Source: a virus
DNA length: 20,393 nt
IMG/VR virus record: IMGVR_UViG_3300034272_000848
Location: 1-20,393 of that record
Direction: 5' to 3' (one strand)
In this document: positions 1-16,606 of the stretch, in pieces
How the letters are laid out: each line of letters begins with the position of its first letter
Numbering within the stretch: the stretch's first letter is position 1
The notes under the pieces: model-generated
The model's database searches: none
Seen by the model: the letters and a program-made list of their open reading frames with translations, nothing else
Told to the model about the DNA's origin: nothing
Program-made: the position numbers and the translations under genes

Positions 1-3000
1 TTTCTGGATTTAGGACTTCAAATTGGAACGGTGATTTCTTTAGTCCAGGATTTATATTTGATAACGTAGAAGTTTCTGATTGGAAATCTTATCAAATCTA
101 TAACCCCGGAGTAGTTGTAAGATATAACGGAGCCTATTACGAATCATCAGAAAAGATCAACGGAGATAAGAACTTTGAATTTAACAAGTGGGTTAAACTT
201 TCAGAGAAACCAATTCCTAGTTTGCTTCCTAACTTTGATTATAAAATTAGTCAATTCGAAGACTTCTATAGTTTAGATATTGATAACTTCGATTCGTCTC
301 AACAACAGTTATCTCAACAGTTGTTAGGATATAATCAAAGACCTTATCTTACAAATATTTTTACAAACCCGACTACACAATATAAATTTTATCAAGGATT
401 TATTCGAGACAAGGGAACAAAGAATGCACTTGACAAAATTGTAAAAGTTGGAGCATTTGCTAGAAACGGAGATATCTCTTTTAACGAAGAGTGGGCATTC
501 CGTGTTGGATACTTTGGTGGATTTGAAACCTATAAAGAAATTGAATTTACATTAGATGAAGGAACTTCTTTAGAAAATCCGTATCTTGTTAAATTGGTCA
601 ATACAATAGAGTCTAATCCTAACAGTTTAATTAATTATATTCCCTCGTCGGATATGTTAATTAAGCCGTCTGACTACACTCCGGCAACTACTTTTAGCAC
701 ATATGACAGTGCGGGTTATGATGATACTAATTTTGAGTTATCGACCGCAGGATATGTTAGCATCGACGATGTCACTGCCACTGCCTACAATAAAAATAGT
801 TTGCTAGATATTGCTAATAATTCTGATATCAAAGAAGGCAATACTATTTGGTTAGGATTCTTAGAAAACGGAGGATGGGCCGTTTATAGGTATGCAAGAC
901 AGCCTGCAAAAGTTTCAGGTGTATTTGTTAACGAACCTACAGAAAGTATTACCTTTGTAACGGACATTCATCATAATTTAGCAGTTGGCGATATTATTTC
1001 TGTAGTTGCATTTAATGATCAAGTAAACGGAGTCTATATTGTAAAAGATATACCTGAATTGAATCAAGTAACAGTTGCAAGTGAGTTATCTACTATTGTA
1101 AATGAAGAACTCCTAGCGTTTGGTGCATTGTTTAAATTTGACAATGCAAGGTACACTGGATTTAAACAGTTATCTGAAGTTAAAAATTTATTAAATCTTT
1201 CTCCAGGCGACAAACTATGGATAGATAGTGCCAGCAATGAGAAGTGGGCCGTATACGAAAAGACCATTAACTACAACACAGGAATTGCCGCCGATACTTA
1301 TGCTTCACCGTTTGGTCAAGAATTAGGCCATACCGTATTTGCTAGTGACGACAACAATGTGATAATGGTATCTGCCCCGTCATGGGAGTCTGCTCAGTCA
1401 GGTAGTGTGGGCAGAATATGGGTCTATGACACTAGTTTTGGATTATTTGAAAAAAAATACGAATATATTTTAAACAGCAATAATCTTGTTTATGCTGAGC
1501 CAAATACTAGTACTGAGTTTGGATATTCTTTAACATATGACAACAACAAAGGTTTATACTTTGCAGGAGCTCCTGCAGCATCCGATGTTCGAGTAAGTGC
1601 TGTTGGCACGGTTGTATTCAGTACAGGTTCTGGCACCGCTCGAAGTTTTGACAATGAAGGGCTAGTTAAAATCAGTTCAAGAGCATCATTCTTTGGTGAA
1701 GAAAAAACTGAGAGAGTATTAGCAAGACCTAATAACGATTCTACCCCAGCGGCTCATGCTAGATTTGGTCATAGCGTATATATTAACCAAGTTGCTGAAT
1801 CGTCTTCTACTACATTATTAGTTGGCGCACCCGGCGACGGTAATTTACACAATAGCGTTGGTCGTGTTTATGCTTACTCCTTAACTGCAACATCTGTTTC
1901 AGTTAATCTTACAGCACACCCTGCAGGTTTTGAAGTGTTGCCTACTGTGTCGTCGAGTAAAATGCAATGGGGACATAAAATTGCAGGTGATGCAGCAGGA
2001 AATTTTGTAGCAATTAGTGCTCCTGGGTACGTAGGTGCCGGATTAGGCATGATACAAATCTTTGATAATGATTTAGAAGTTAAGCAGACAATTCAATCTC
2101 CGTTTGATAATACTGTAGTGTTTGGTGATGATCTATTTGTTTCTTCTAGCGGAAAGTTTTTAGTAGTATCTTCGAAAGACATAAAATCAGTTGGCGAAGG
2201 ATATGGAAAAGTTGCAGTCTATACAGCAACTAACCTAACATCCTCTGGCACATATGTCCTGCATCAGATCATTGATAATCCTGTAGTAACAAACGATTTA
2301 AGATTTGGTCATAGTATTTCTATGAGTAAAGACGAAACAGTTTTGGTAATCAGTTCTCTAGGAAAAAATAGATCACAGTATTATGAATTTGATGAAACAG
2401 GTAGATCTGGAATTACTACCTTTGATCAAAACACAACAAGATTTATAGCACCTATTGCAGATTCTGGCGCTGCATATGTTTACAATAATCTGGGTGATTA
2501 TTTTGTTCCTGCTGAAGAGCTAAACGATGCAGCAATTATTGAAGGCAGCAGATACGGTTATTCAGTTGCGGCAACTAATAAATTTGTTTTAGTAGGTGCT
2601 CCGTGGTATGCTGTTACATCTGAATCCGATGATTCTACATTTTTTAAATTTGATAAGATTGACGAAACAACTAACAGCTTCAAACTATTACAGTCTCAGC
2701 CTGAACTAGTTGATGTAAACAAAGTTAAGAGAATTGCATTAATCAATTCAGTCAATGAAGAAATTGTTGAATACCTTGATGTGTATGATCCTCTAAAAGG
2801 TCGCATTCCTGGTCTTGCTAGTCAAGAATTAAAATATAGAGTTGCAGCCGATCCTGCAATTTATACAATTGGTACAGCAGGAACAGTTGTTGATACAGAA
2901 ACAAGTTGGATCGACGAGCATGTTGGAGAACTATGGTGGGATCTCAGCACGTTAAAGTACACATGGTACGAGCAAGGTAATGAGATTTTCAGAAAAAACA

Positions 3001-6000
3001 ATTGGGGCAAATTGTTCCCCGGATCAACTGTTGATGTCTACGAGTGGGTCAAGAGTGATCTTCTACCTAGCGAGTGGGCTGCTCAAGCCGACACTAACGA
3101 AGGGTTAACATTAGGTATTAGTGGACAACCAAAATATCCTGATAACAGTATTATTTCTGTCAAGCAGTTGTTTAATAATGTTACTAACTCTTTTGAAAAT
3201 GTTTATTATTACTGGGTTAAGAACAAGGTTACAGTACCCGACATTATGAACAGGAGAATTAGTTCGTTCCAGGTTGCAAGTTTAATTACGGATCCTGCTG
3301 CAAACGGATTAAGATTTGCAGAGATTGTTTCACCAGATGCAATGGCATTGGCTAACGTACAACCGTTGTTAGTGGGCAATAAGATAAATGCAAATATTGC
3401 AATTGATTCTATTAACAATAAGATCCCTCGTCACACTGAATGGGTATTGCTCGAAGAAGGTAGTGCATCTAGTATGCCTACAACTATGTTGAATAAGAAA
3501 TTATTTGACAGTTTATTAGGACATGATGTCAATGGCACATTGGTTCCAGATCCTTCTTTATCATACAGGAGTAAGTATGGTATTGGTATTAGACCTCAAC
3601 AAACTCTATTCAAAGATAGATTAGAAGCATTAAGAAACATTGTAGAATTTTCCAATTCTGTATTAATTAAAAATAGAATTACAGGAAGTTATAATTTTGA
3701 AAATTTAAACAGTAAAGAAGAGATACCTGATCAATTTTCTAAGCAGTATGACCTAGTTGTCGAAGATTTGTTTGAATTAGATCAAGTTGAAACTACTAAT
3801 TTTTCAAAAGCACAAGTAGAATGTTTAACATTTAACGGTCGTATAATCAGTGCAACTATTGTTGATCCAGGATACGGTTATAGTTTGCCGCCTGAAATTA
3901 CAATTTTATCCGAAACTGGAAGCGGAGCAATACTAACAGCTTCTATTAATAGTAGCGGCGAATTAATTTCTATTGAAATTGAAAATGCAGGAAATAATTA
4001 TACTGAATTAGAACCAGCAGCAATAGTTAGACCACATACTGTTATTGTTGCAGTTAATGAAGAGTTTGGAAATCGCTGGACTAAGCATGAATTTGATTAT
4101 ACATTTAGACAATGGATCAGGGTTAAAACTCAATCGTATAATACACCATTATACTGGAAATATGTTGATTGGGTTAGCGACTCCTACAACGGCTACAAGG
4201 ATTACAAATATGTAATTTCTGATTCTGGAGAACTTTCTAAAATTGTAGATACGGTTCCGGGAGATTATGTTAAAATTAACAACATAGGTGACGGAAGATA
4301 TCTGATATTGGAAAAAATTAAACAAGGTGATATTGGAAATTTCTCAACACAATATAACATTGTTTATAGCCAACATGGTACAATACAAATTTTAGATGAC
4401 ATATGGAATTATTTAGAAGGCAATTATGCTTATGATAGTTCTACGTTAGACGAAACTTTATACGATCAAATTCCAGATGTTGAATTGTTTAAAATACTAA
4501 CTGCTCTTAAGGATGATTTATTTGTTAAAGATTTAAAAATTAATTGGAACTTATTATTCTTCAAAGCAGTCAAGTATGCACTAACTGAACAGAAGTTGTT
4601 AGATTGGGCATTTAAAACATCATTTATCACTGTTAACAATAAGATTGGTGAGTTAGATCAGCGATCAGTTTACAGATTGGATAATGAGTCTTATTTTGAA
4701 GAATACATTAAAGAAATCAAACCATATAGAACTAAAATTAGATCTTATACATCTGACTACTCGGTCACGGATACATTTGGAGTAGAAGGAGCACCAGTTA
4801 CTGATTTTGATTTACCATCGTATTTTAATTCATCAACTAATGCAATTGAGCAAGTAGGCCTTGATAACCCGTTAATTACAGAAACACCGTGGAAGTGGTG
4901 GGCTGAGAATTACAAGTATTATGTGAGCAGTATTGAAGTAGCAGATCATGGTGAGGGATATACACAGCAACCTACTATTGAAATTGTTACAGCACCAGGT
5001 GATTCTGGTTCTGGCGCATCTGCGGTGGCGTATATTAAAGATGGTAAGTTATATAAAATATTGGTAACTTCTCCGGGTAGCGGATATGTCACAGCGCCTA
5101 TTTTAAACGTCATAGGTGGTGGTACAACAGTTACTAGAAAGGCAACTGCTTCTGTCATCATAGATAATGATTATATTAGAAAAAATAAAGTCAGTATCAA
5201 ATTTGATAGAGTTGGCGTACAGAACGAAATTGGTAACAATCGAGTTACTGAAAGTTTCACTTGTTCGGGTGTAGATAATAAATTTGCACTAGGTTGGTTA
5301 GCTGAGCCTGCAAAGTCGCATATTGTTCCTTTGTTAGATGGAAAATTAGTATTGTCAGCAGACTATACAATTGAATATTTTACAGAAACAGTTGACAACT
5401 ATACTAAGAAACATTGCAGATTTGTATTTTTAAATTATGTACCATTAATTGGACAAGTATTTAAAATTACCTATAACAAAAACATTGATCTATATTCAGC
5501 AGTTGATAGAATTAATGAATATTACGAGCCAACTGATTCTATGGTCGGCAAAGAACTACCGTTACTGATGTCAGGTGCAGAGCAAGGCGGAACTCAAATA
5601 CAAGGTTTATCTTTTGGATATTCTCCACCGTGGGGTCAAGGTTTCTTTGATAATGACTCTGCCTGGTCAGACTTGGTGGCCTATTATGCATCTGCCAAAT
5701 TGATCGCTGATGTTGATTATGCAACATCTACATTAGAGTTAGATTCTACTGAAGGTATTTCTGTAGGACAGCGAGCAAATATTGTAAACACATCTACAAA
5801 ATATATTAGAGAAGGTACAATAGTAACAGCAGTTAATACGTCATTGAATACAGTTGTGTTATCTGATAAAAATTATACAATTGATAAAGTATTTGCGTCA
5901 TCGTCGACTAATGCTTATCCTGTTGTATTCTATACTGTAGAACATCTCAATTATCTGCAAGAAAACGATAAAATTGTAGTCACTTTAGATGGCGGGGCAG

Positions 6001-9000
6001 TTAGTGGTTATGATGGAGATTATATTGTAACCGGTGTAGGTACTGACAGATTTGAAGCGGTTGCTGTTACCTCTTCTGTATTATCAACTACTACTGTGAG
6101 AACTGTACCACTAGGCTCATCTATATATGTTCCGGCAGTACTAGCAGATATTAATGCACTCACTGATTATAAATTGTATCAGTTTGAAGACGATATTACA
6201 AATACAAGCACCGTCTACTATGACACTCAAGTACCAGTTGATCGAGTTTCTTCAATCGAAGTTAAGGTAGGAATGACTGTACTATCTGACTCTCCTGGCC
6301 CAGTTGAATATTATGTAACAACGTCTACAAATAATGGTACATTTGCATTTACAGTTTATAATCTAGGCGTAATTTCAAATAATCACTTTGACGTTACAGT
6401 TTACGGATATCCAACAGTTGAATTCTGGAAAGACAATTTCAATGCTGGCGGCGTAGATACTGATCTAATTGGAGGCTCGTGGAATGGTGCTGGAAACTTT
6501 GTAGGAGCACTGGGAGTTAATCCTGCAGATCTTGTGGTACATGCCGGTTCTTTAATTGAACCTAACTTTGGCTATGCTCCGGAAGAACATGTAAAAGGAC
6601 ATGTTCTTGAGAACATTAACATTAATGTCTACACACAAGATAACCAAACTTCACCATTGGTAGTCACCGGAGTAGTTCCAGTTGAAGCATTTCAGACTAC
6701 AATTGCAAAACTTGGATTGCCAGTTGATGAGTCGGTCGGTGTAATGGTTAACTTTAAGAACAAAATACTTGATAGATTGTCTACGCCACCCGATACTGAA
6801 GATACAGGTCCTTATTTTAGTGTAGCCGAAGCGTTGCCTAAAGGACCAGTTGGTCCACCGATTGCATCAAGTGCAGGCGACGACTTCTACACAGGACCCT
6901 ATACTATTCCGTTTAATTGGAATATGTTTGGTACAGTATTCACTGAAGTTTTTGTTAGTACTAACGGGTTCTTAACGTTCGGTGGTCCTGGAAATAATTT
7001 CCCCGCACCGTGGCGCTTAACAGATGTTGACAATATCGCTTATCCCTCTATTCTAATCGAGTATTGCGACCTTTGGCAAGATTTTGGTAGTAGTGGTCAG
7101 GGTTTGATTACAGGAGAAATTCCAGGACTGTATATCAGCAACGGCACAATTGCAAATTTCAATTACTGGAGATTGCGTTTCCAAGGAAGCCATTATTCAC
7201 AGAGAGATGTCCTACCTCAAATGCCAGCATACCAATATGAGGTAACATTGTATAGCGATGGTGTAAATCAGTATGTCGAAATGATATATGAAAATACATG
7301 GAGAAGTTATAATGTTGGTCTTGAACCACCTAGTGCGTTAGGATTCTTTACAGGTATTGCTACTGCTAATCTTAATGAATTTGTTCAGATACCCTACACT
7401 AGTATTCAAAATAATACTAGTCATGTATTCTACAGTACACAGGCCGGCGGCGAATGGAAGTATGCAGGTCAAGGTAGTTTTGATCCTTATAAAGATCCTT
7501 ACAACTTTACATCAGCTGACCAATATTACATAAAAGGCGATTCTATTTTTATTGCCCCACAACCTGAATCAGGCCGTGCCGGATATACCTTGATGACTAT
7601 GGGAGGAGAGAATGTTATTGATTCTAACTCCGTACTTGTCGATGATCCTAGCGTTACATCTATAGTAATTGACAGTATTGCAAATATTAACGATGTAAGA
7701 AGTGTATATGTAACAGCTGACGGAATAGAATTAACTGAAGTGGTATCTACATCTTCATATGGCTATATGGTAACTCCATTGGGAATTAATAACAATAGAG
7801 CTGCAATAACCGTTTATAATATTCCTACCACTCCTACTACAATTCAAGCGTGGTTCTTAAAATCTAATCATGCAGAGTTTAACGGTATGTGGGAACAAAC
7901 ATTTGTAGTTGAAACAACTGCAACAACGTTTGAATTAAGTCGTCCTCTTCCGAATATTGAACCAGTTAGTGCTCAAATATTTGTCGAAGTAGAAACAGTT
8001 TCATCTGGAGTTCAAGGTAGAAAGCGATTGATGCCACCCGATGTTACCTATTACAAAATAAAGAACGGTCAAACCGTATTTGAAATTGATGCAAAATCTA
8101 GACCAGTTGACACATTCTCGTTATCAAATGTTAGAGTATACGGCAACGGTGCGCTGTTAAGACCAGGTTTTGATTACATTTTAACTGGAGGTACAGGTAC
8201 TATTACATTGTCTACTGGACTATTACCAAACGGTAGTGTAATTGCTATAGAAATTATGATTGACTATGACTATGTTGTTGTAGGAAACACAGTGATTTTA
8301 ACAGAAGGTATCTTTGACACTACATTAAAAGTTACAACATTTACTGATCATACAGGAATGATGATCCGCACTGAGCAATTTGATGGAAACGTGACTCGTA
8401 GATTTGTATTGAGCTTACCGGCAGTGTCAACTGAGTACATTTGGGTATATGTGGATGGTGGTCCATTAATAGCTGGCTATGATTATGAATTACTTGATGA
8501 TATGAGAACAGTGCAGTTCAGTGAATGGGCAGGAATTACACCAGCTTCTAAGGTTGCAATTTCAGTAGTAAATTCACCATTCCGTAGTAACATGATTGTA
8601 GGATATAACATATCTAACGATATTTTTGGAAGAGTCGGATATAATCGAATTACTGATTTCTACAGTACACGATTGACTAAAGAGTTAAATCTAACTGATA
8701 CAGAGATTTATGTCGAAGATGCTACAAGAATAATTCCACCTAATCCTAGTAAAAATCTTCCTGGCGTATTATTTGTTGATAGTGAAAGAATTGAATTTTT
8801 CTCAAGAACAAATAACGTATTAGGTGACCTACGTAGAAGTACTATGGGAACTGCTCCAGCAAGCTATTCTGAAATAGGAACTAAGTTGTTTGATAGAACT
8901 CCTCAACAGCGAATTCCTTATGCTGATGTTATTAAACTACAGAAACATATTACTAGTTCTACTACAAATGAATTTGTATTGAACACAGTATCTGCAGGTA

Positions 9001-9509
9001 ATAACACATATACTGTTAAAATTAGCACCAGTTCTTATGTAATTAATACTGGCACGCTATTTGAATCTACAGGAACAGGAATGACATTGGCTGCTATAGA
9101 TGGTCTAAGCAATCAACTTACAGTTAAATATGGTGGAAGAGTCCTACGTAAAAATACTAGTACTGTACATAATCCTGATATTTCCTATGATTCAACAGCT
9201 GAAAGTGTATACACAATTCCGCCTGAATTTACAGTAGTATACAATTCAGGTACAGGAGATTATGAAGTAAATATTACAGTTGACGATTTTAAATTAGGAA
9301 CACGAATTGATATTGAACAGAAAACTGGATCAATGTGGCATGCTCCTGGAGATTCTATCTTGGTATCTAACAGTATTCAGGCAGAATTTTTAAGAGCTAA
9401 AACTACTAATTTACCAGATTCTTATTACTACGGTGGCAACCCAGTTCTTACTGATGACACTAATTTTGAACTAACTGACGAAGACAACAACCCATTAGAG
9501 GGATATTAA
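1..9509 (+). CDS. Giant modular virion structural protein, 5'-truncated by the window edge
   Basis: The frame is open from base 3 to the TAA at 9507-9509 (3168 codons) with no stop upstream, so the true start lies outside the window and the internal TTG at 222 is not a credible start. It is probably a tail or baseplate-associated exterior protein that contacts the cell surface. Domains by nucleotide position: a CBM5/12-like aromatic motif (81-200); two Trp motifs of the form GxxxW...WAVY near 840-890 and 1205-1255; a 'H-L-x-x-GD' beta module at about 951-1100 and again at about 5922-6090; seven FG-GAP repeats (1311-2612); Gly-Tyr-Gly repeat domains (about 3837-4050 and 4925-5165); a conserved-looking EEYIKEIKPYRTKIRSY stretch near 4696-4746; a NIDO-like domain (about 6870-7370); several VxxxG..L..G.DY beta modules (about 5320-8575); and a GVLFVDSERIEFF segment near 8762. 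No signal peptide or membrane segment was seen. Similar long mosaic proteins occur among structural genes of marine T4-like phages. The exact virion position is unknown. Confidence 0.8.
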   Translation, partial: SGFRTSNWNGDFFSPGFIFDNVEVSDWKSYQIYNPGVVVRYNGAYYESSEKINGDKNFEFNKWVKLSEKPIPSLLPNFDYKISQFEDFYSLDIDNFDSSQQQLSQQLLGYNQRPYLTNIFTNPTTQYKFYQGFIRDKGTKNALDKIVKVGAFARNGDISFNEEWAFRVGYFGGFETYKEIEFTLDEGTSLENPYLVKLVNTIESNPNSLINYIPSSDMLIKPSDYTPATTFSTYDSAGYDDTNFELSTAGYVSIDDVTATAYNKNSLLDIANNSDIKEGNTIWLGFLENGGWAVYRYARQPAKVSGVFVNEPTESITFVTDIHHNLAVGDIISVVAFNDQVNGVYIVKDIPELNQVTVASELSTIVNEELLAFGALFKFDNARYTGFKQLSEVKNLLNLSPGDKLWIDSASNEKWAVYEKTINYNTGIAADTYASPFGQELGHTVFASDDNNVIMVSAPSWESAQSGSVGRIWVYDTSFGLFEKKYEYILNSNNLVYAEPNTSTEFGYSLTYDNNKGLYFAGAPAASDVRVSAVGTVVFSTGSGTARSFDNEGLVKISSRASFFGEEKTERVLARPNNDSTPAAHARFGHSVYINQVAESSSTTLLVGAPGDGNLHNSVGRVYAYSLTATSVSVNLTAHPAGFEVLPTVSSSKMQWGHKIAGDAAGNFVAISAPGYVGAGLGMIQIFDNDLEVKQTIQSPFDNTVVFGDDLFVSSSGKFLVVSSKDIKSVGEGYGKVAVYTATNLTSSGTYVLHQIIDNPVVTNDLRFGHSISMSKDETVLVISSLGKNRSQYYEFDETGRSGITTFDQNTTRFIAPIADSGAAYVYNNLGDYFVPAEELNDAAIIEGSRYGYSVAATNKFVLVGAPWYAVTSESDDSTFFKFDKIDETTNSFKLLQSQPELVDVNKVKRIALINSVNEEIVEYLDVYDPLKGRIPGLASQELKYRVAADPAIYTIGTAGTVVDTETSWIDEHVGELWWDLSTLKYTWYEQGNEIFRKNNWGKLFPGSTVDVYEWVKSDLLPSEWAAQADTNEGLTLGISGQPKYPDNSIISVKQLFNNVTNSFENVYYYWVKNKVTVPDIMNRRISSFQVASLITDPAANGLRFAEIVSPDAMALANVQPLLVGNKINANIAIDSINNKIPRHTEWVLLEEGSASSMPTTMLNKKLFDSLLGHDVNGTLVPDPSLSYRSKYGIGIRPQQTLFKDRLEALRNIVEFSNSVLIKNRITGSYNFENLNSKEEIPDQFSKQYDLVVEDLFELDQVETTNFSKAQVECLTFNGRIISATIVDPGYGYSLPPEITILSETGSGAILTASINSSGELISIEIENAGNNYTELEPAAIVRPHTVIVAVNEEFGNRWTKHEFDYTFRQWIRVKTQSYNTPLYWKYVDWVSDSYNGYKDYKYVISDSGELSKIVDTVPGDYVKINNIGDGRYLILEKIKQGDIGNFSTQYNIVYSQHGTIQILDDIWNYLEGNYAYDSSTLDETLYDQIPDVELFKILTALKDDLFVKDLKINWNLLFFKAVKYALTEQKLLDWAFKTSFITVNNKIGELDQRSVYRLDNESYFEEYIKEIKPYRTKIRSYTSDYSVTDTFGVEGAPVTDFDLPSYFNSSTNAIEQVGLDNPLITETPWKWWAENYKYYVSSIEVADHGEGYTQQPTIEIVTAPGDSGSGASAVAYIKDGKLYKILVTSPGSGYVTAPILNVIGGGTTVTRKATASVIIDNDYIRKNKVSIKFDRVGVQNEIGNNRVTESFTCSGVDNKFALGWLAEPAKSHIVPLLDGKLVLSADYTIEYFTETVDNYTKKHCRFVFLNYVPLIGQVFKITYNKNIDLYSAVDRINEYYEPTDSMVGKELPLLMSGAEQGGTQIQGLSFGYSPPWGQGFFDNDSAWSDLVAYYASAKLIADVDYATSTLELDSTEGISVGQRANIVNTSTKYIREGTIVTAVNTSLNTVVLSDKNYTIDKVFASSSTNAYPVVFYTVEHLNYLQENDKIVVTLDGGAVSGYDGDYIVTGVGTDRFEAVAVTSSVLSTTTVRTVPLGSSIYVPAVLADINALTDYKLYQFEDDITNTSTVYYDTQVPVDRVSSIEVKVGMTVLSDSPGPVEYYVTTSTNNGTFAFTVYNLGVISNNHFDVTVYGYPTVEFWKDNFNAGGVDTDLIGGSWNGAGNFVGALGVNPADLVVHAGSLIEPNFGYAPEEHVKGHVLENININVYTQDNQTSPLVVTGVVPVEAFQTTIAKLGLPVDESVGVMVNFKNKILDRLSTPPDTEDTGPYFSVAEALPKGPVGPPIASSAGDDFYTGPYTIPFNWNMFGTVFTEVFVSTNGFLTFGGPGNNFPAPWRLTDVDNIAYPSILIEYCDLWQDFGSSGQGLITGEIPGLYISNGTIANFNYWRLRFQGSHYSQRDVLPQMPAYQYEVTLYSDGVNQYVEMIYENTWRSYNVGLEPPSALGFFTGIATANLNEFVQIPYTSIQNNTSHVFYSTQAGGEWKYAGQGSFDPYKDPYNFTSADQYYIKGDSIFIAPQPESGRAGYTLMTMGGENVIDSNSVLVDDPSVTSIVIDSIANINDVRSVYVTADGIELTEVVSTSSYGYMVTPLGINNNRAAITVYNIPTTPTTIQAWFLKSNHAEFNGMWEQTFVVETTATTFELSRPLPNIEPVSAQIFVEVETVSSGVQGRKRLMPPDVTYYKIKNGQTVFEIDAKSRPVDTFSLSNVRVYGNGALLRPGFDYILTGGTGTITLSTGLLPNGSVIAIEIMIDYDYVVVGNTVILTEGIFDTTLKVTTFTDHTGMMIRTEQFDGNVTRRFVLSLPAVSTEYIWVYVDGGPLIAGYDYELLDDMRTVQFSEWAGITPASKVAISVVNSPFRSNMIVGYNISNDIFGRVGYNRITDFYSTRLTKELNLTDTEIYVEDATRIIPPNPSKNLPGVLFVDSERIEFFSRTNNVLGDLRRSTMGTAPASYSEIGTKLFDRTPQQRIPYADVIKLQKHITSSTTNEFVLNTVSAGNNTYTVKISTSSYVINTGTLFESTGTGMTLAAIDGLSNQLTVKYGGRVLRKNTSTVHNPDISYDSTAESVYTIPPEFTVVYNSGTGDYEVNITVDDFKLGTRIDIEQKTGSMWHAPGDSILVSNSIQAEFLRAKTTNLPDSYYYGGNPVLTDDTNFELTDEDNNPLEGY
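1311..2612 (+). repeat. Seven FG-GAP-type repeats, predicted seven-bladed beta-propeller, within the giant protein
   Basis: Seven successive segments follow the pattern [F/W/Y]G-x-[S/T/K/D]-[V/L/I]...[V/I/F]-x-[G/S]-[A/S]-P. They begin at FGQELGHTVF (1311), EFGYSLTY, RFGHSVYI, QWGHKIAG, VFGDDLFV, RFGHSISM and RYGYSVAA, and five of the seven end in a GAP or SAP tripeptide. Between them run 'GRIWVYD', 'GRVYAYS' and 'GKVAVYT' type strands. This is the layout of integrin-alpha-type FG-GAP repeats, which fold as seven-bladed propellers that bind proteins or glycans. Blades 5 and 6 have degenerate GAP motifs. The repeat count was made by eye. Confidence 0.7.
6870..7370 (+). other. Nidogen-like (NIDO) domain coding segment within the giant protein
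   Basis: The translation near 6879 reads DDFYTGPYTIPFNWNMFG, followed by TEVFVSTNGFLTFGG, a later aspartate-rich 'YPSILIEYCDLWQDFG' strand, 'WRLRFQGSHY', 'YQYEVTLYSDG' and 'IGFFTGI'-like strands. This order (PF-x-F-G, V-S-x-N-G-x-[L/I]-x-F, an acidic D/W strand, then a V-x-L-Y-x-D-G strand) matches the NIDO extracellular adhesion domain family. Assignment is by motif only. Confidence 0.5.
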
Positions 9510-9511
9510 AC

Positions 9512-10237
9512 ATGCCAAAAATTACTCGACTACCTTTTATTACTTCAGGAACCACTGCTACTAGTTTTTTAGTAGTAGATGCGTTAGCAACACGCCGCTT
9601 ATTATACTCGGACTTTGTCGACAGGGTAGTTAGTGAAATTGGTGCAGAAGAATTTACAGGACCAACTGGCCCACGAGGTCCGGATGGTCCGTCAGGCCCG
9701 GCTGGGGTTAGTTCTGTCCCTGGACCTACAGGACCAACTGGACCGTCTTCGTTGCCAGTAGGTGGTGCTACTGGTCAGGTATTATCTAAACTGTCGGGTA
9801 CAAATTACGACGTAGGATGGGCTGATGCATCAGGCGGCGGTGGCGAAGTAGGATTATCATCGAGAGAAAATACTAGTGTTGTTGCATCAACCGTAGCCGC
9901 AGGTAATTCACTTGAAGTGACAGCAAGCGGATTTAAAACTTATGTTCTATCTAAAGTTACTACAAGTTCTCCAGCTTGGGTTAGAATTTATTCAGATGCT
10001 ACTAGCAGAACAAATGATGCAGCTAGAACAGAAGGTACTGATCCTTTACCTGGTAGTGGTGTTATTGCAGAAGTTATTACTACTCCGGGATCTTTAACTC
10101 AACTAATCACTCCTGGAGTTATTGGATTTAACAACAATTCTACTCCTGCTAATTTAATTTATATGGCGGTAAAAAATACTGATACTGTTTCTAGAGATAT
10201 TACAGTAACTTTATCTATTTTACAGTTGGAGGCATAA
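9512..10237 (+). CDS. Collagen-like tail fibre / minor virion protein
   Basis: This 241-aa protein starts two bases after the preceding stop, with an AGAGGG ribosome-binding site (9497-9502) nine bases upstream of the ATG. Residues 1-45 form a short N-terminal domain of a type often seen at the start of phage fibre proteins ('MPKITRLP...'). Residues 50-79 are Gly-X-Y triplets (five, a short break, then three), expected to form a collagen-like triple helix. A 'GGATGQVLSK...NYDVGWAD' linker typical of fibre proteins follows, then a Gly-rich hinge at 107-111. Residues 114-241 form a beta-rich C-terminal domain with 'PAWVRIYSDATSR' and 'DPLPGSGVIAEV' stretches; its function is not known to me. 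It is probably a trimeric fibre or decoration protein. It lies in one transcription unit with the giant protein and the protease. Confidence 0.75.
   Translation: MPKITRLPFITSGTTATSFLVVDALATRRLLYSDFVDRVVSEIGAEEFTGPTGPRGPDGPSGPAGVSSVPGPTGPTGPSSLPVGGATGQVLSKLSGTNYDVGWADASGGGGEVGLSSRENTSVVASTVAAGNSLEVTASGFKTYVLSKVTTSSPAWVRIYSDATSRTNDAARTEGTDPLPGSGVIAEVITTPGSLTQLITPGVIGFNNNSTPANLIYMAVKNTDTVSRDITVTLSILQLEA
9659..9748 (+). repeat. Collagen-like Gly-X-Y repeat tract
   Basis: This segment encodes GPT-GPR-GPD-GPS-GPA, a short interruption (GVSSVP), then GPT-GPT-GPS. Proline sits at the second position of every triplet, as expected for a trimerising collagen-like stalk. Confidence 0.85.
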
Positions 10238-10238
10238 T

Positions 10239-11879
10239 ATGAGAAAAAAAGAGTATGTAGTAACTCTAAAAAATAAAGACGATCTGCCAGGATTCTATAA
10301 TGATATGGAAACGGTTGGGGGATCTCTTTCTATCCCAAATAGAGCAGTACCTGTTAAAAATCGCAGACCTATCAGCAGGAATACAACATATCTCTTAACA
10401 GAATTTGAAGCAAAAAAAATTAGCAAAGATCCGAGGGTGTTGTCTGTTGAATTGACATTTGAAGAACAAGGAATAAAAATTAAACCTAGTCGTTCTGAAA
10501 CAAGTACACTATGGAACAAATCTAATACAATTAGTACAGGTCATAGAAATTGGGGATTATTGAGGTGTGTAGAAGGCGCAACTCGATCAAATTGGGGCAG
10601 CAACGGTACAACTAACGTTAATGGCACTATTACCCTTACATCAACTGGAAAACACGTTGATGCAGTGATAGTAGATGGACATTTTGACCCCGATCATGCA
10701 GAATTTGCAGTAAACGCCGACGGAACTGGCGGCTCCCGAGTAGTGCAGTTTAATTGGTTGTCTTTAAATCCTCAAGTAATAGGAGAACCAGCAGGAACTT
10801 ATGTTTACGCACCTTATGTTGGTGATACTGCTCTTACTAATAATAATAATCACGGAATGGCTGTTGCGGGAGTATTTGCTGGAAATACTAGAGGTTGGGC
10901 GTCGGATGCTAATATTTACAATATAAGTCCGTATGCTAGTAACCCCAATACTGATGTGCCGTTTAATCTTTTTGATTACATACGAGCATGGCACAATTCA
11001 AAACCTATTAATCCTGCTACCGGCAGACGAAATCCCACTATCACTAATCATAGTTACGGAGCTGATGCTGATTTACCAGTAACATCTATATCACAGGTTC
11101 GATTTAGGGGCGTTGTTAATAATGGTCCCTTTACACTTAGCCAATTGTCTGCATTTGGAATTGTTACCTATGATTCTGGAGGTGGAGTATATGCTGCAAC
11201 ATTTCCTTTGCGATCAAGTGCGTTTGATGCAGATATAGTAGATGCAATAGATGACGGTATTATTATTGTATCTGCATCTGGTAATAGTGCTACCAAAATA
11301 GATAATTTTAGCAGTAATCTAAGTGCTGATTATAATAATTATATTGTGAGCGATGGTTTTCTATATTACTATAACAGAGGTCCTTTATTTGCAACACCAG
11401 GTTCTATACAAGTAGGAGCTATTGCTGCAACTGTAAGTGAAACAAAAGCTACATACAGTAATTGTGGTCCTAGGATAGATCTTTATGCTCCGGGATCTCT
11501 TATAATGACAACAATTAATTCTGGAGGATTTGTTAGTGATGCTAGAGATCCTATAGATAGATGGACTAAAGTAAACGGCACTAGTTTTTCGTCACCACAA
11601 GTTGCAGGAGCATTAGCTTGCCTTGCTGAACAGTGGCCCACAATGACTCAGTCACAGGCATTGAGATATATTACAGAAAATGCCACAGTTGATCAAATAG
11701 CAGATACTGAGGGCGGCCCCGGTGACGATCTTAGTTTACAAGGTTCGGAAAATCGCTATCTTTACTATGTTAAAGAACGGCAGGAGCAAGGACAAATTAC
11801 TCCTAGGTCAAATCAAGGATTTCGTCCTACAAGTGGAATGACTTGGCCTCGTCCTCGAATTTACCGATACGGAAGATAA
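10239..11879 (+). CDS. Subtilisin-like serine protease (peptidase family S8)
   Basis: This 546-aa protein is preceded by GGAGG (10228-10232), six bases before the ATG, and its start codon lies one base after the previous stop. Residues 1-80 look like an inhibitor-I9-type propeptide ('EYVVTLKNKDD...' to 'ISKDPRVLSVEL'). The catalytic domain has the S8 triad in family order: Asp146 in 'AVIVDGHFDPDHAEF', His205 in 'NNHGMAVAGVFAG', and Ser449 in 'NGTSFSSPQVAG'. Asn349 in 'VSASGNS' is the expected oxyanion-hole residue. A 'NWGLLRC' segment near 104-110 resembles the start of mature subtilases. No signal peptide is visible, so it probably acts in the infected cell or as a virion component. Placement between fibre genes suggests either processing of virion proteins or cleavage of host surface proteins. 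Activity is inferred from motifs; the role is speculative. Confidence 0.9.
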   Translation: MRKKEYVVTLKNKDDLPGFYNDMETVGGSLSIPNRAVPVKNRRPISRNTTYLLTEFEAKKISKDPRVLSVELTFEEQGIKIKPSRSETSTLWNKSNTISTGHRNWGLLRCVEGATRSNWGSNGTTNVNGTITLTSTGKHVDAVIVDGHFDPDHAEFAVNADGTGGSRVVQFNWLSLNPQVIGEPAGTYVYAPYVGDTALTNNNNHGMAVAGVFAGNTRGWASDANIYNISPYASNPNTDVPFNLFDYIRAWHNSKPINPATGRRNPTITNHSYGADADLPVTSISQVRFRGVVNNGPFTLSQLSAFGIVTYDSGGGVYAATFPLRSSAFDADIVDAIDDGIIIVSASGNSATKIDNFSSNLSADYNNYIVSDGFLYYYNRGPLFATPGSIQVGAIAATVSETKATYSNCGPRIDLYAPGSLIMTTINSGGFVSDARDPIDRWTKVNGTSFSSPQVAGALACLAEQWPTMTQSQALRYITENATVDQIADTEGGPGDDLSLQGSENRYLYYVKERQEQGQITPRSNQGFRPTSGMTWPRPRIYRYGR

Positions 11880-11911: not shown

Positions 11912-12541
11912 ATGGATGACAAAAACATGAACAGCTTTGCAAACGATGCCGGTGCGATTAGCATACAAGGGCATATTAAAATTTACGACCCTATCTCTAA
12001 AGAAGTCTATATAGATAAAAGAAATGCTATTCACTACGAGAATTTTTCAATTGCTCTTGCACAGAGCATTGCTAATCAAGGTGAAGGTATGATTGCAGAA
12101 ATGGTATTTGGCAACGGCGGAACCAGAGTTTCTAATGGTATTATTACATATTTAACACCTAACTCAGTCGGTAGAAATGCCACATTGTATAATCAAACAT
12201 ATTACAAAACTGTTGATGCTAAAAATGCAGCGTCGTTGGATCCTGCAAGAAATTTTATGGAAACACGTCACATTGAAGGAACAGTTTATACTGATATTTT
12301 AGTCACATGTTTGCTAGATTTTGGAGAGCCTAGTGGACAACTCGCGTTTGATAATGAAACAAATACAGATAACGCAGCCTTTGTGTTTGACGAACTGGGA
12401 CTAAAAGCATATAATCCAGTTGGCCCTAATACTGGCGATTTATTAACTCACGTAATTTTTCACCCAGTCCAGAAGTCATTGAACAGATTGATTCAAATTG
12501 ACTACACTGTGAGAATACAGAGTCTGAGCACTGGAGTATAA
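11912..12541 (+). CDS. Probable virion structural protein of unknown specific role
   Basis: This 209-aa protein lies between the protease and the fibre genes. No family function is recognised with certainty. It has no Cys-rich, coiled-coil or membrane segments and appears beta-rich, with 'GAISIQGHIKIYDPISKEVY' near the start, 'MVFGNGGTRV' in the middle and an 'LTHVIFHPVQKSLNRLIQIDY' stretch near the C-terminus. This resembles small virion proteins encoded near fibre genes in marine myoviruses, but that is inference from context. The start is uncertain: the ATG at 11912 has no Shine-Dalgarno sequence and sits directly after a late-promoter match. The Met codon at 11927 (residue 6), with GGATG upstream, could be the real start of a late transcript. 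Confidence 0.7.
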   Translation: MDDKNMNSFANDAGAISIQGHIKIYDPISKEVYIDKRNAIHYENFSIALAQSIANQGEGMIAEMVFGNGGTRVSNGIITYLTPNSVGRNATLYNQTYYKTVDAKNAASLDPARNFMETRHIEGTVYTDILVTCLLDFGEPSGQLAFDNETNTDNAAFVFDELGLKAYNPVGPNTGDLLTHVIFHPVQKSLNRLIQIDYTVRIQSLSTGV

Positions 12542-12544
12542 CAA

Positions 12545-14341
12545 ATGTCAACATCATATGTATATACATTAACATTTTCCGATCCTACAAACACTGATGT
12601 TATTGAAATTTTAGGAACTACTGTAGGCTCGGGTAAAAATAATTATAGTACCAGCCTTGACTTAGTAGGGTCTGGATATGTTAATTACGGCAAAGACATT
12701 GCACAAAATTTCGTAAAAGTTCTTGAGAATTTTGCAGGACCTAATCCTCCAGTTAATGCAATTAAAGGTCAAATTTGGTATGATACCAGTAACCCTGCTC
12801 GAAGTGTTCTAAGGGTCAACAACGGAAAAGTTACTAGCAATCGTTGGCCTGCTGCAAGTGGAATTTATCAACAAACAAATGATCCAACGGTGAGCTATAG
12901 TCAGAGCGTTACTATAGGTGATATCTGGGTAGACACTAACAGTAATCAACTTAAAATATGGTCACTAGACGGATGGACTACAGTTGGTCCAGCAATCGAT
13001 ACAGGTAGCAATAAGTCTGGACCAGAGACTGTAACTATTCAGAGTAATACTGGTGCAGATTTTCCTGTAATTTTAAACTGGGTAAATGGTAAAGTTGTAG
13101 AAATTATTGCTTACGATAATTTTACTCCAAGATCTGTTATCGACGGGTTTACATCGATTAGACAAGGTACTAATTTAACATCAAGGATTCCTGCTCGTTA
13201 TAACGGTATAGCAGAATCAGCAGCAAGTTTATATGTGTCACCTGGTGTAACAATTAGGTCGACAGATGTATTAAAAAATAAATCTCCTCTAACTCCGCAA
13301 ATTCATACTGGTACATTTATAGTAGAAACTTCAGCTGCCGTTAACGGTGGTCTTCGTATTAGAAATCCTAATGTAGTCGGAGGTACAATACAGATTCATA
13401 ACTTACCTGGACAAGGAGCAGTTGTTGATTATTTAAAAACAGATTCTACTCTAAGAGTAGGAGTTTCAACGTCTTCTTTTATTAGGTTTGATGGTAGCAG
13501 TAAATCAGTTAGCATCAACACGGCAACTACAAACGGCACATTCTATGTTTATGGTTCGGGCAATTTTTCAAGCAATGTAGGAATTTCTACAACATTATCT
13601 GTCGGTGGACATGCAGATTTTTTAAGTTCAGTTAATGCTGCTAGATTGTCTGTATCTAATCTATCTACATTTAGTGGAGGAATAACATTAGGAACTACAT
13701 TGGGTAGTGGTCCTATCGTTGTTCCTAATAATAGTGATAGCTACGATTTAGGAACCGCAGCAAACCCCTTTAGACACCTCTATGTGTCTGCTATTGGATC
13801 TACTAATTCTAACATTACAATATATGGAAGGGTGTCAACTGCAACACAGATAGAAATTGCTCAACCTGTCAGTATTCAAGGTCATATTGCTTCTGTTGCT
13901 CCGGTTATGTTTAACGGAACCGCACCAGTTACATTAATTACAACTGCTACTGCTAGCCTAATTACTACAACATCAATAACTACCGCAACTGCACCAACAC
14001 AGTCGTTGTTGGTTGTTGATACAGCAGCAGTAATTCCGGAATTAAAACAGATTAGTAAAGCAAACTTTTTATCAGATCTGTATTCGTTAGTGTTCCAGCC
14101 TGGAATGATTATTCCTTTCGGGTCTACATCTACTACAGGTACTCCTAGTGTTATAGGTTTTAATGACGGTGATTGGTTATGGTGTAATGGATCCGTGGTA
14201 GCAATCAGTACATATACCGCTCTTAATTCGGTGCTTGGTACCCAATACGGATCAGCACCAGTTGGATATTTTAAACTTCCGAATTTAACAACTGCTACTG
14301 TTGCTAACGGGTATGCAATACAATACATTATAAAGACCTAA
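12545..14341 (+). CDS. Tail fibre protein with C-terminal phage tail-collar domain
   Basis: This 598-aa protein has GGAG (12533-12536) eight bases before its ATG, inside the end of the preceding gene. Residues about 30-140 hold an N-terminal domain shared with the next two genes ('LDLVGSGYVNYG...NFVKVLENFAGP', 'KGQIWYD', 'GDIWVDTNSNQLKIWS'), probably the attachment part. The middle is a beta-rich shaft with 'GNFSSNVGISTTLSVGG' type repeats and a 'YDLGTAANPFRHLYV' motif common in fibre proteins. Residues about 518-598 match the tail-collar family: 'PGMIIPFGS', 'GDWLWCNGSVV', 'YTALNSVLGTQYG' and 'FKLPNLTTAT'. Collar domains occur in T4 gp12-type receptor-binding fibres. It is therefore a likely receptor-binding or short-fibre protein; the receptor is unknown. 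Confidence 0.85.
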   Translation: MSTSYVYTLTFSDPTNTDVIEILGTTVGSGKNNYSTSLDLVGSGYVNYGKDIAQNFVKVLENFAGPNPPVNAIKGQIWYDTSNPARSVLRVNNGKVTSNRWPAASGIYQQTNDPTVSYSQSVTIGDIWVDTNSNQLKIWSLDGWTTVGPAIDTGSNKSGPETVTIQSNTGADFPVILNWVNGKVVEIIAYDNFTPRSVIDGFTSIRQGTNLTSRIPARYNGIAESAASLYVSPGVTIRSTDVLKNKSPLTPQIHTGTFIVETSAAVNGGLRIRNPNVVGGTIQIHNLPGQGAVVDYLKTDSTLRVGVSTSSFIRFDGSSKSVSINTATTNGTFYVYGSGNFSSNVGISTTLSVGGHADFLSSVNAARLSVSNLSTFSGGITLGTTLGSGPIVVPNNSDSYDLGTAANPFRHLYVSAIGSTNSNITIYGRVSTATQIEIAQPVSIQGHIASVAPVMFNGTAPVTLITTATASLITTTSITTATAPTQSLLVVDTAAVIPELKQISKANFLSDLYSLVFQPGMIIPFGSTSTTGTPSVIGFNDGDWLWCNGSVVAISTYTALNSVLGTQYGSAPVGYFKLPNLTTATVANGYAIQYIIKT

Positions 14342-14345
14342 AACT

Positions 14346-15314
14346 ATGGCTTATACAATTTATAACAATGACGAAACAGTATTGCTAATTTTAGCAGATG
14401 GTGAAATTGACACAGATACAACTGCCTTAACATTAGTTGGTAAGAATGTTAATAATTATGGACAATATGTTAATAATAATTTTACAAAGTTATTGACTAA
14501 CTTTGCATCACCGAATGTTCCTGTTGCTAGGGCAGGACAGTTATGGTATGATAGTGCAAACAGCAAATTAATGGTTCATAACGGAGTTGAGTTTGACCCA
14601 GTATATGGCGCTACTATTAGTGGAACACAACCTGCAACAACTAGCACTGGCGATATTTGGTATAATAGTGTTGACAGCAGTCTCAACATTTGGTCAGGCA
14701 GTCCGCTAAATCAATGGTTCAAAGCAGATCCGAGAATATACGAAAACAGTAAGTATGGGATTTTTAGACCTGAAGACGATGCAAAATTTTATGACGATGA
14801 TTTTAGTCAAGAACAAGATGTATCTGTAATTTATTCTAAAGGTGTTCCTGTAGGGTTAATTACTACTGCATCATATTCTATGCCGGTATCTGATGCGGTA
14901 GTATACTTTGGAACTGCAACTACATCAACAGTAATTGCAGGAGTCACATTACTTGACAATTTAGAAGTTCGTGGCAATCTTTCAGTTAGAGGTAGCACTA
15001 CATATGATAGAAATTTAATAGCCTATTATGACATTTCTAATTACGGAACTCCTAACAGCTTAGTTAATATTAATGCCGGAAACGTTGCTATACGTAATGA
15101 TTTGGCTAAATTGTTTCCTGTCGATAGTATATCGACATTAAGTCAAGTTGCATATTCTATAGGATCAGAAGCTAGAGTCTTATGTATCTATAATGGAGAT
15201 ACTTCTGTTAGACGATTTGTCCTAGATGATCTAACGCCTGGGGTTCCGAGATGGGAGCCATTAAATCTATACTATACTGTTTCTGTGTCAACAGTAACTA
15301 ACATTGTAATCTAA
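14346..15314 (+). CDS. Short tail fibre paralogue (shared N-terminal domain, distinct C-terminus)
   Basis: This 322-aa protein starts four bases after the collar-domain fibre gene, without a strong Shine-Dalgarno sequence, so translational coupling is likely. Its N-terminal 130 residues repeat the shared domain: 'LTLVGKNVNNYGQYVNNNF', 'KLLTNFASP', 'AGQLWYD', then 'TGDIWYNSVDSSLNIWSG'. The C-terminal part (about 150-322) has a short shaft-like 'LDNLEVRGNLSVRGST' segment and ends in beta strands ('PGVPRWEPLNLYYTVSVSTV'), with no collar domain or other recognised tip. It could be a fibre subunit, a connector or an adaptor to which a longer fibre docks. The structural role is inferred from the paralogy and position. 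Confidence 0.7.
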   Translation: MAYTIYNNDETVLLILADGEIDTDTTALTLVGKNVNNYGQYVNNNFTKLLTNFASPNVPVARAGQLWYDSANSKLMVHNGVEFDPVYGATISGTQPATTSTGDIWYNSVDSSLNIWSGSPLNQWFKADPRIYENSKYGIFRPEDDAKFYDDDFSQEQDVSVIYSKGVPVGLITTASYSMPVSDAVVYFGTATTSTVIAGVTLLDNLEVRGNLSVRGSTTYDRNLIAYYDISNYGTPNSLVNINAGNVAIRNDLAKLFPVDSISTLSQVAYSIGSEARVLCIYNGDTSVRRFVLDDLTPGVPRWEPLNLYYTVSVSTVTNIVI

Positions 15315-15322
15315 GGACAGCT

Positions 15323-16606
15323 ATGCCATATATTCTTAATAAAACTAATGGAGAACGAATTGCAGTAGTTCAGGACGCAGCGTTAGATCTAAGTACAGAT
15401 TTAATTTTTGTCGGTAGAAATTATGCAGGTTACGGTGAGTGGCAAAATGAAAACTTTTTAAAGTTACTTGAAAATTTTGCCAATACAATTTATCCTCCTA
15501 AGGCTATTACTGGACAGATTTGGTATGATACTGTGAACATGAAGCTGGGATTTTATGACGGCAGTAGATGGAAAAAAGTTGCAAATTTAACAGTAGACGC
15601 TACAAATCCCGTTAGTTCAGAACCTACTACAGGTGATTTATGGTATAACAATACCGAGCAGCAATTATATGCATTCAACGGCGATGACTTTGCACTAATT
15701 GGACCCCCAAGTGGTGCAGATACCAAAGCACAATGGAGAGGAGACGTTGAGTATGCATCGGCTAGTGAGGATAACAGTGGTTCTCCTAAATATAATATCA
15801 AGGCAGTAGTTGGAACAAATGATCAAGTAGTTGCGTTAGTGTCTGATGAGCGATATATAATTGGTCCTGCAACACAAGCACCTTTCCCTAAATATCCAGT
15901 TTATGATGAAGGTACTTCTTTTACTATCGTTAAAGGTATTACTTTACGCGGAGCAGATCACGTAACAGGAAGATCTGCTAGCTCAACTGCTACTACTGAT
16001 AGCTATTTGATATGGGGCACAGCAGCTCATTCGATTTTAGCTGATGCAGCAACAAGTACTCGCGGATTTTCCTTTGCTAATAGCCCCACAACAGGATCCT
16101 ATCCTATACCTTACGTTAGTTCAACTGGTACAGCATTAGAGATATATTCAAATAACTCTTATTTTTACAACCCTGTAGACAATAGCGTCAACGCTTCTAT
16201 TTTTAGAGGAGTTGCTACCAGTGCGTATTATGCAGATTTGGCAGAACGTTATGAAGCAGATTCTGTTTACGACGAAGGAACGGTTGTAGTATTAGGTGGT
16301 ATAAAAGAAGTTACAATTAGTACAGAACATGCCAGTACCGCAGTTGCAGGAATTGTAAGTAAAAATCCAGCATATTTGATGAATTCCGAGGCAGGAACTG
16401 ACGAAACTCACCCTGCAATTGCATTAAAAGGTCGTATTCCGTGCAAAATTTACGGACCTGTTAGAAAAGGTGAGCTGCTAGTAACTAGTGGACATCGTCC
16501 GGGGCATGCTACTGCAAAACAATTAGGCGATGATCCGAACGCTGTAATAGGAAAAGCCCTTGAAGATTTCAAGGGCTTAGTTGGCGTTATAGAAATTAAA
16601 GTTTAA
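15323..16606 (+). CDS. Tail fibre paralogue with possible maturation-type C-terminal domain
   Basis: This 427-aa protein has AAGGA (15313-15317) overlapping the upstream stop, five bases before the ATG. Residues 1-135 carry the shared fibre domain ('TDLIFVGRNYAGYGEW', 'KLLENFANT', 'TGQIWYD', 'TGDLWYNNTEQQLYAFNG'). The centre is beta-rich. Residues about 305-427 form a compact conserved-looking end: 'SAYYADLAERYEADSVYDEG', 'AGIVSKNPAYLMNSEAG', 'IALKGRIPCKIYGPVRKGEL', 'TSGHRPGHA' and 'IGKALEDFKGLVGVIEIKV'. This recalls C-terminal fibre domains in which a chaperone or autocleavage unit follows an 'ADLAE' strand (Peptidase_G2-like), but I am not certain of the family. Its last codons contain the stem-loop at 16554-16578, and its stop overlaps the convergent thymidylate synthase stop. 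Confidence 0.75.
   Translation: MPYILNKTNGERIAVVQDAALDLSTDLIFVGRNYAGYGEWQNENFLKLLENFANTIYPPKAITGQIWYDTVNMKLGFYDGSRWKKVANLTVDATNPVSSEPTTGDLWYNNTEQQLYAFNGDDFALIGPPSGADTKAQWRGDVEYASASEDNSGSPKYNIKAVVGTNDQVVALVSDERYIIGPATQAPFPKYPVYDEGTSFTIVKGITLRGADHVTGRSASSTATTDSYLIWGTAAHSILADAATSTRGFSFANSPTTGSYPIPYVSSTGTALEIYSNNSYFYNPVDNSVNASIFRGVATSAYYADLAERYEADSVYDEGTVVVLGGIKEVTISTEHASTAVAGIVSKNPAYLMNSEAGTDETHPAIALKGRIPCKIYGPVRKGELLVTSGHRPGHATAKQLGDDPNAVIGKALEDFKGLVGVIEIKV
16554..16578 (-). terminator. Perfect 11-bp stem-loop, candidate terminator of the left-going operon
   Basis: AAGCCCTTGAA, loop GAT, TTCAAGGGCTT: all 11 stem pairs match and the core is GC-rich. Read leftward it lies 25 bases past the thymidylate synthase stop and the stem runs into a TTTT tract (GGGCTTTTCC), as in a rho-independent terminator. 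Read rightward the following bases (AGTTGG) make a poor U-tract, so termination is more convincing for the minus strand. It sits inside fibre codons for 'KALEDFKGL'. Confidence 0.7.

Follow-up and report, generated by a model that had tools for sequence, protein, structure and literature searches.

Why does a phage carry a gene for a subtilisin-like (S8) protease among the genes for its tail fibres, and does the enzyme act on the fibres themselves or on the surface of the host? The question is raised by the window analysed here – an entire IMG/VR contig, 20,393 bases long – in which such a gene lies directly behind that of a collagen-like fibre protein. The original prediction, made from the letters alone, offered two roles for the product: processing of fibre or baseplate proteins during assembly, or travel in the virion to cut host surface proteins. 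Here, we compare the protease, its partner and its C-terminal tail with their relatives in other phages, and weigh these roles against two further ones.

The protease gene and its setting

The features of the window are as follows.

222-9509, + strand: giant virion protein, 3095 aa, TTG start (PHROG virion structural protein)
9512..10237, + strand: short collagen-like fibre protein, 241 aa, the partner upstream of the S8 gene (Pfam, PHROG)
9656..9751, + strand: shaft of the partner, collagen-like Gly-Pro-Thr repeats (weak PF01391 match; read from sequence)
9830..10234, + strand: C-terminal tip domain of the partner, all-beta, conserved beside S8
10227..10241, + strand: GGAGG ribosome-binding site, stop codon, one base, ATG of the S8 gene
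10239..11879, + strand: S8 subtilase gene, 546 aa (Pfam, PHROG, family alignment, predicted structure)
10239..10520, + strand: propeptide-like region, residues 1-94 (predicted structure; weak I9 match in two of 54 members)
10548..11777, + strand: catalytic domain, putative mature form, approximately residues 104-513 (alignment, predicted structure)
10674-10676, + strand: Asp146 codon
10851-10853, + strand: His205 codon
11283-11285, + strand: Asn349 codon, oxyanion position
11583-11585, + strand: Ser449 codon
11799..11876, + strand: C-terminal tail TPRSNQGFRPTSGMTWPRPRIYRYGR, conserved, basic and predicted to be disordered; proposed docking tag
11912..12541, + strand: downstream structural gene, 209 aa (PHROG 11259; also behind the S53 locus L153)
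12545-14341, 14346-15314 and 15323-16606, + strand: three related fibre-type proteins, one with a tail-collar domain
19126-20385, - strand: DUF2201 putative metallopeptidase plus VWA-like protein
Also on the - strand: thyA, dihydrofolate reductase and small genes, besides the DUF2201 protein

The S8 gene does sit in a tail-fibre cassette, as had been proposed, flanked by the collagen-like fibre gene on one side and by structural and fibre genes downstream. An origin from a typical T4-like cyanophage is unsupported, the backbone genes pointing to jumbo myoviruses (Atu_ph07, Phosso, PA5oct and 121Q), and psbA is present in one of 20 relative contigs. The giant protein has relatives in jumbo myoviruses; its gene stands before the tip gene in the window as well as in L143, L145 and L153, and S-H38 and S-CREM1 have a giant gene in a similar position. 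The products of the three fibre-type genes resemble each other in their N-terminal region (NFxKLLxNFAxPxxPxxAxxGQxWYD) and differ at their C-termini (tail-collar, none recognised, and PHROG 6427), a pattern suggestive of a single fibre anchor that was duplicated and given different tips. The DUF2201 protein is 87% identical in contigs of the closest S8 relatives, and its relatives in phage records are often labelled 'HNH endonuclease' or 'homing endonuclease'.

The protease reading frame begins with ATG, and its assignment to S8 is secure. The protein matches PF00082 (Peptidase_S8) with 78.5 bits and E=6.9e-22 (curated cut-off 21.8) and PHROG 9158 with E=6e-106, and PF00082 is matched by all 54 of the aligned family members, which confirms that the first sighting of an S8 protease gene was real and far exceeds chance. 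The order Asp146/His205/Ser449, together with the oxyanion Asn349, is present in the window protein with the triad exactly at the positions first read, and it is conserved family-wide: Asp and His occur in 85 of 85 aligned sequences, and Ser and Asn in 84, the sole exception (S-TIM54) being cut short in that alignment and having both the GTSAASP and AGN motifs in the full comparison. Judged by its sequence, the gene encodes a complete protease with an intact, conserved active site.

An AlphaFold2 model built on the alignment of 54 family members (mean pLDDT 87.9) has the subtilisin fold, matching 8c4z in Foldseek with E=2.1e-19 and a TM by target of 0.83. The top matches are ProteinT protease, aqualysin I and proteinase K (TM by target 0.81-0.86), and PCSK9 is also among the fold matches. 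Other identities are ruled out: that of a sedolisin (S53) by the S8 His205 (in HGMAVAG) and the S8 triad, that of a polysaccharide depolymerase tailspike – a glycan-cutting beta-helix trimer – by the subtilisin fold, and that of a catalytically dead adhesin by conservation of the triad across the family.

The apparent propeptide of the original prediction takes an I9-type form in the AlphaFold2 model, where residues 4-72 are arranged as beta-alpha-beta-beta-alpha-beta, the topology of I9 propeptides (strands at 4-10, 39-41, 48-53 and 67-72, helices at 13-24 and 55-61), with a further strand at 85-93. Residues 78-83 form a linker of low confidence, which would fit a processing linker. Pfam I9 (PF05922) has no match in the window protein and is matched weakly by two of the 54 members (best E=0.015). 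A Sec leader was sought in the first 40 residues, where the best 10-residue hydrophobicity is 0.78 as against 2.73 for a typical Sec leader, in keeping with the earlier remark that no export signal is visible.

Compared with the proteinase K and aqualysin subtilases (MEROPS S8A), the window protein has the same fold, Asp/His/Ser triad and oxyanion Asn, and the I9-type topology, but it lacks a signal peptide, stands in a phage fibre context, and has approximately 130 extra residues in the catalytic region and a basic C-terminal tag predicted to be disordered. Its identity to solved subtilase structures is 15-20%.

Pairing with a conserved fibre tip

The spacing of one base to the collagen-like fibre gene, noted at the outset, is exact, with the partner gene stopping at 10237 and the S8 gene starting at 10239, and the GGAGG site for S8 sits within the final codons of the fibre gene. 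This junction suggests that translation of the protease is coupled to that of its partner.

The arrangement recurs in other phages. Among 80 IMG/VR loci plus L014, of which three were not assessable, an ORF with the tip domain ends within -4 to +4 bp of the S8 start in 77 of the 78 loci counted, numbers that overstate independence because some loci are near-duplicates; the remaining locus, L042, has another S8 copy between the tip gene and S8. A reverse search from the tip domain gave 81 tip ORFs, 76 of them followed by an ORF matching the subtilase profile (at least one of which, in L184, is a sedolisin on inspection). The other five precede a family of cupredoxin-like proteins of ~650-820 aa (four loci, with one of the proteins cut off by the contig end) or a sedolisin (L153); the cupredoxin-like sequence was read by eye and has no Pfam match. 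Chance adjacency of S8 and fibre gene is ruled out by these two counts, and related phages show a near-absolute adjacency rather than S8 genes at unrelated positions.

A profile search of IMG/VR recovered at least 570 S8 relatives, and others are found in 39 annotated phage records, of T4-like cyanophages (33 named Synechococcus, four Prochlorococcus and two 'Marine virus'), where the gene is always within a fibre or virion-protein cassette. Divergent S8 genes (those of P-SSM2, S-SCSM1, S-SSM7 and their kin) immediately follow fibre genes whose tip domain is a second one, unrelated to the first. In bacterial genomes there are two close relatives, in Rickettsiales and Euryarchaeota metagenome bins, which may be mis-binned phage contigs; the rest are ordinary subtilases.

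The close matches to the tip domain are exclusively phage proteins, mostly of cyanophages, and its matches to the PDB are weak and generically beta-rich, including furin and Kex2, which we regard as generic beta-sandwich similarity. A mirror-distance test is not discriminating, with r=0.53 for S8 against the tip and r=0.48 for S8 against the fibre N-terminus. In the gp37-gp38 pair of T4-type phages, the fibre gene is followed at once by the gene of a protein that associates with the tip of the fibre; the likeness to the window is one of gene position, the downstream gene here being a protease.

Strict adjacency and the likely translational coupling, together with the lack of an export signal, would also suit an assembly protease that cleaves the upstream fibre or another tail protein during maturation, for which presence in the virion would be unnecessary. 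No common cleavage site is apparent, however, since the shafts and N-termini of the partners vary in length and sequence, and the tip domain is conserved up to its last residues. Taken with the exchange of peptidase families and the virion evidence described below, this makes an assembly role unlikely.

The C-terminal tag and exchange of S8 for S53

Residues 522-546 of the window protein are predicted to be disordered, and the tail of the family has the consensus RPxxGxx[YFW]PR, in which R529, P537 and R538 are invariant in the alignment and G533 nearly so; some S8 homologues have a cupredoxin-like domain at the C-terminus in place of the tag. The strict pattern is found in 79 of 168 complete S8 ORFs and in 13 of 4146 other ORFs (S-SCSM1_233 being counted twice), all 13 of them in fibre cassettes, with 0 in 50 shuffles – a count that describes rather than tests, because the pattern was defined after the sequences were seen. 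The tagged non-S8 proteins include small proteins behind a cupredoxin-like protein (in S-H9-1, ACG-2014i, Sf-CH1b, S-SCSM1, L197, L210 and L220) and one protein each from L036 (small) and L164 (240 aa). SSCSM1_235 also belongs here; it is annotated 'tail fiber protein', bears the virion label, and has a GHSQG lipase-like motif that was read by eye, with no confident Pfam match.

Locus L153 is syntenic with the window: its downstream protein is 68.5% identical to that of 11912-12541, and matches extend to the collar protein and to the final part of the giant protein. At the S8 position it carries a 425-aa kumamolisin-like S53 peptidase (E=3.6e-36), in which the Glu/Asp, Asp and Ser motifs are present, and which ends in NQGMTFPRQVSIRPSQGQTFPRSTTRFTH, with the motif seen in the S8 tail (FRPTSGMTWPRPRIYRYGR). 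A second tagged sedolisin lies directly behind the tip gene in L184. The same slot behind the same tip is thus filled, with the same tail, by peptidases of another family, whose catalytic set is Glu/Asp/Ser, whereas the window gene is S8. Nothing argues more strongly than this replacement that the position requires proteolysis as such, and not a particular fold or site, and a swap to a protease family of other specificity is more easily explained by a surface blade than by a site-specific processor of tail proteins.

The same exchange bears on a further explanation, in which the sole use of catalysis is removal of the propeptide, the mature protein being a receptor-binding tip of the gp38 kind, as in the single-use protease PCSK9. 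The presence of PCSK9 among the fold matches is in its favour, as is the cupredoxin-containing protein without a recognised peptidase that fills the position in other phages. We consider such a self-processing adhesin quite unlikely, because replacement by an S53 enzyme with its catalytic motifs favours protease activity as the conserved trait, and not one catalytic residue has been lost in the aligned family.

The cupredoxin-like family found in the S8 slot behind the tip has members of ~770 aa in L007 (10572-12875), L025 (5172-7502) and L142 (5383-7680); they share a conserved C-terminal region, KGLPxNxxMxPCPYYLPDDF, and a small tagged protein comes next.

From its distribution we infer that the tail docks its bearer on the fibre, although it could instead serve folding or a chaperone. 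A broader reading, which we hold tentatively and at somewhat less than even confidence, is that RPxxGxx[YFW]PR is a plug-in tag that docks swappable cargo on the conserved fibre tip, allowing surface-cutting enzymes to pass as a cassette between phages with different backbones; the cargo would comprise S8, the S53 sedolisin, a small adaptor beside a cupredoxin-containing protein, and perhaps the lipase-like protein. If the tag is a docking signal, the occupation of one fibre place by unrelated enzymes would be explained.

Likely virion association and the proposed role

Evidence on the virion comes from a distant homologue. Mass spectrometry of CsCl-purified S-SCSM1 virions identified 45 phage proteins (PMC9602691), and by our own count 48 genes are labelled 'virion protein' in the GenBank record. 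The labels include ORF91, ORF213 and ORF214, unusual ones named in that paper, and omit the terminase and several hub proteins; we take the label as detection by mass spectrometry because it matches the non-structural proteins that the paper names as so detected. The S8-bearing SSCSM1_228 is labelled in this way, and has 27% identity to the window protein, a different tip domain, C-terminal LamG lectin domains and no clear tag. In S-TIM54 (L022, 9989-16411), S8 is joined with a carboxylesterase-type region and Ig domains, both above Pfam cut-offs, in a virion structural protein of 2140 aa. The status of S8 as virion cargo is thereby supported, via the record label and paper on one distant homologue. 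Cultured phages with the tagged module are S-CREM1, S-H38, S-RSM4 and Sf-FR1, and for S-CREM1 mass-spectrometry data on virions have been published (PMC9964418).

Of the two roles first offered, travel in the virion is therefore the better supported, with the cutting of host surface proteins standing as a proposal as to substrate, and processing of fibre or baseplate proteins is the less likely, since the virion label and the fusions to binding domains favour the former. The same label and fusions, and the pairing of one tip domain with S8 across otherwise different phage backbones, speak against an intracellular role apart from the fibre, such as host protein degradation or counter-defence, in which the location would reflect late-operon history. 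The lack of a signal peptide would allow such a role and there is a weak match to the PADLOC subtilase model, as expected for any subtilase; we regard it as very improbable.

Because the gene adjoins a fibre-tip gene in hundreds of aquatic phages, and the tag is common to unrelated enzymes, the product is most likely a fibre-borne blade. We propose a tail-fibre module of two genes in which S8 supplies the enzyme, its product probably being an auto-processed, fibre-docked protease that cuts a host surface protein. The upstream gene would give a trimer-type fibre with a collagen-like shaft and a conserved beta-rich tip, and the protease would be translated directly after it, fold with the help of its I9-like propeptide, and cleave itself at the linker (approximately residues 78-100). 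The disordered tag would attach it to the fibre, presumably by binding the tip, so that it leaves the cell within the virion. On contact with the next host, it would cut an outer-surface protein and so open access to the receptor or membrane.

Most known virion enzymes that remove host surface material are depolymerases acting on glycans, and the S8 protein would be their counterpart for protein. Like them, it is proposed to clear such material from a place on a tail fibre or spike; unlike depolymerases and tailspikes, it is a protease, a separate polypeptide apparently attached by its tag, and not a beta-helix trimer. If this is true, many aquatic phages would breach protein coats with a protease of this widespread, fibre-docked kind, and the target of cyanophage fibres could be tested directly.

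The use of this family in a phage, first thought uncommon, is so in part at most, S8 proteases being common in the fibre cassettes of T4-like cyanophages. Annotations of such genes go back to P-SSM2 (T4-GC292, PF00082), and the T4-GC292/PHROG 9158 'subtilisin-like serine protease' group of T4-like cyanophages (P-SSM2 PSSM2_297, S-RSM4, S-H38 and S-CREM1) has 27-45% identity to the window protein and the same place in the fibre cassette. These are known as annotation, and from phages unlike that of the window, which extends the module to a jumbo-myovirus-like backbone. There is also a passing mention of an S8 peptidase in P-HM1 and P-HM2 (PMC3037559). Within the openly available papers covered on cyanophage subtilisin-like or S8 proteases and phage sedolisins, we found no functional study and no description of the tip pairing, the tag or the S8/S53 exchange. 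The original prediction had likewise overlooked the conserved tip domain, the tag and the replacement. An S8 gene in a fibre cassette is thus already known, but the interchangeable module of tagged protease and tip appears to be undescribed.

Some members of the family depart from the usual form. L042 has tandem S8 genes (1604-4309 and 4311-5957) behind a single tip gene, the first of them encoding a 901-aa protein with large inserts, in which HA replaces the usual HG after the catalytic His. In S-CAM1 (L141, 5308-7563), a divergent S8 annotated as a tail fiber protein lies behind the tip domain, and the position of the catalytic Asp appears, in a weak alignment, to read Glu.
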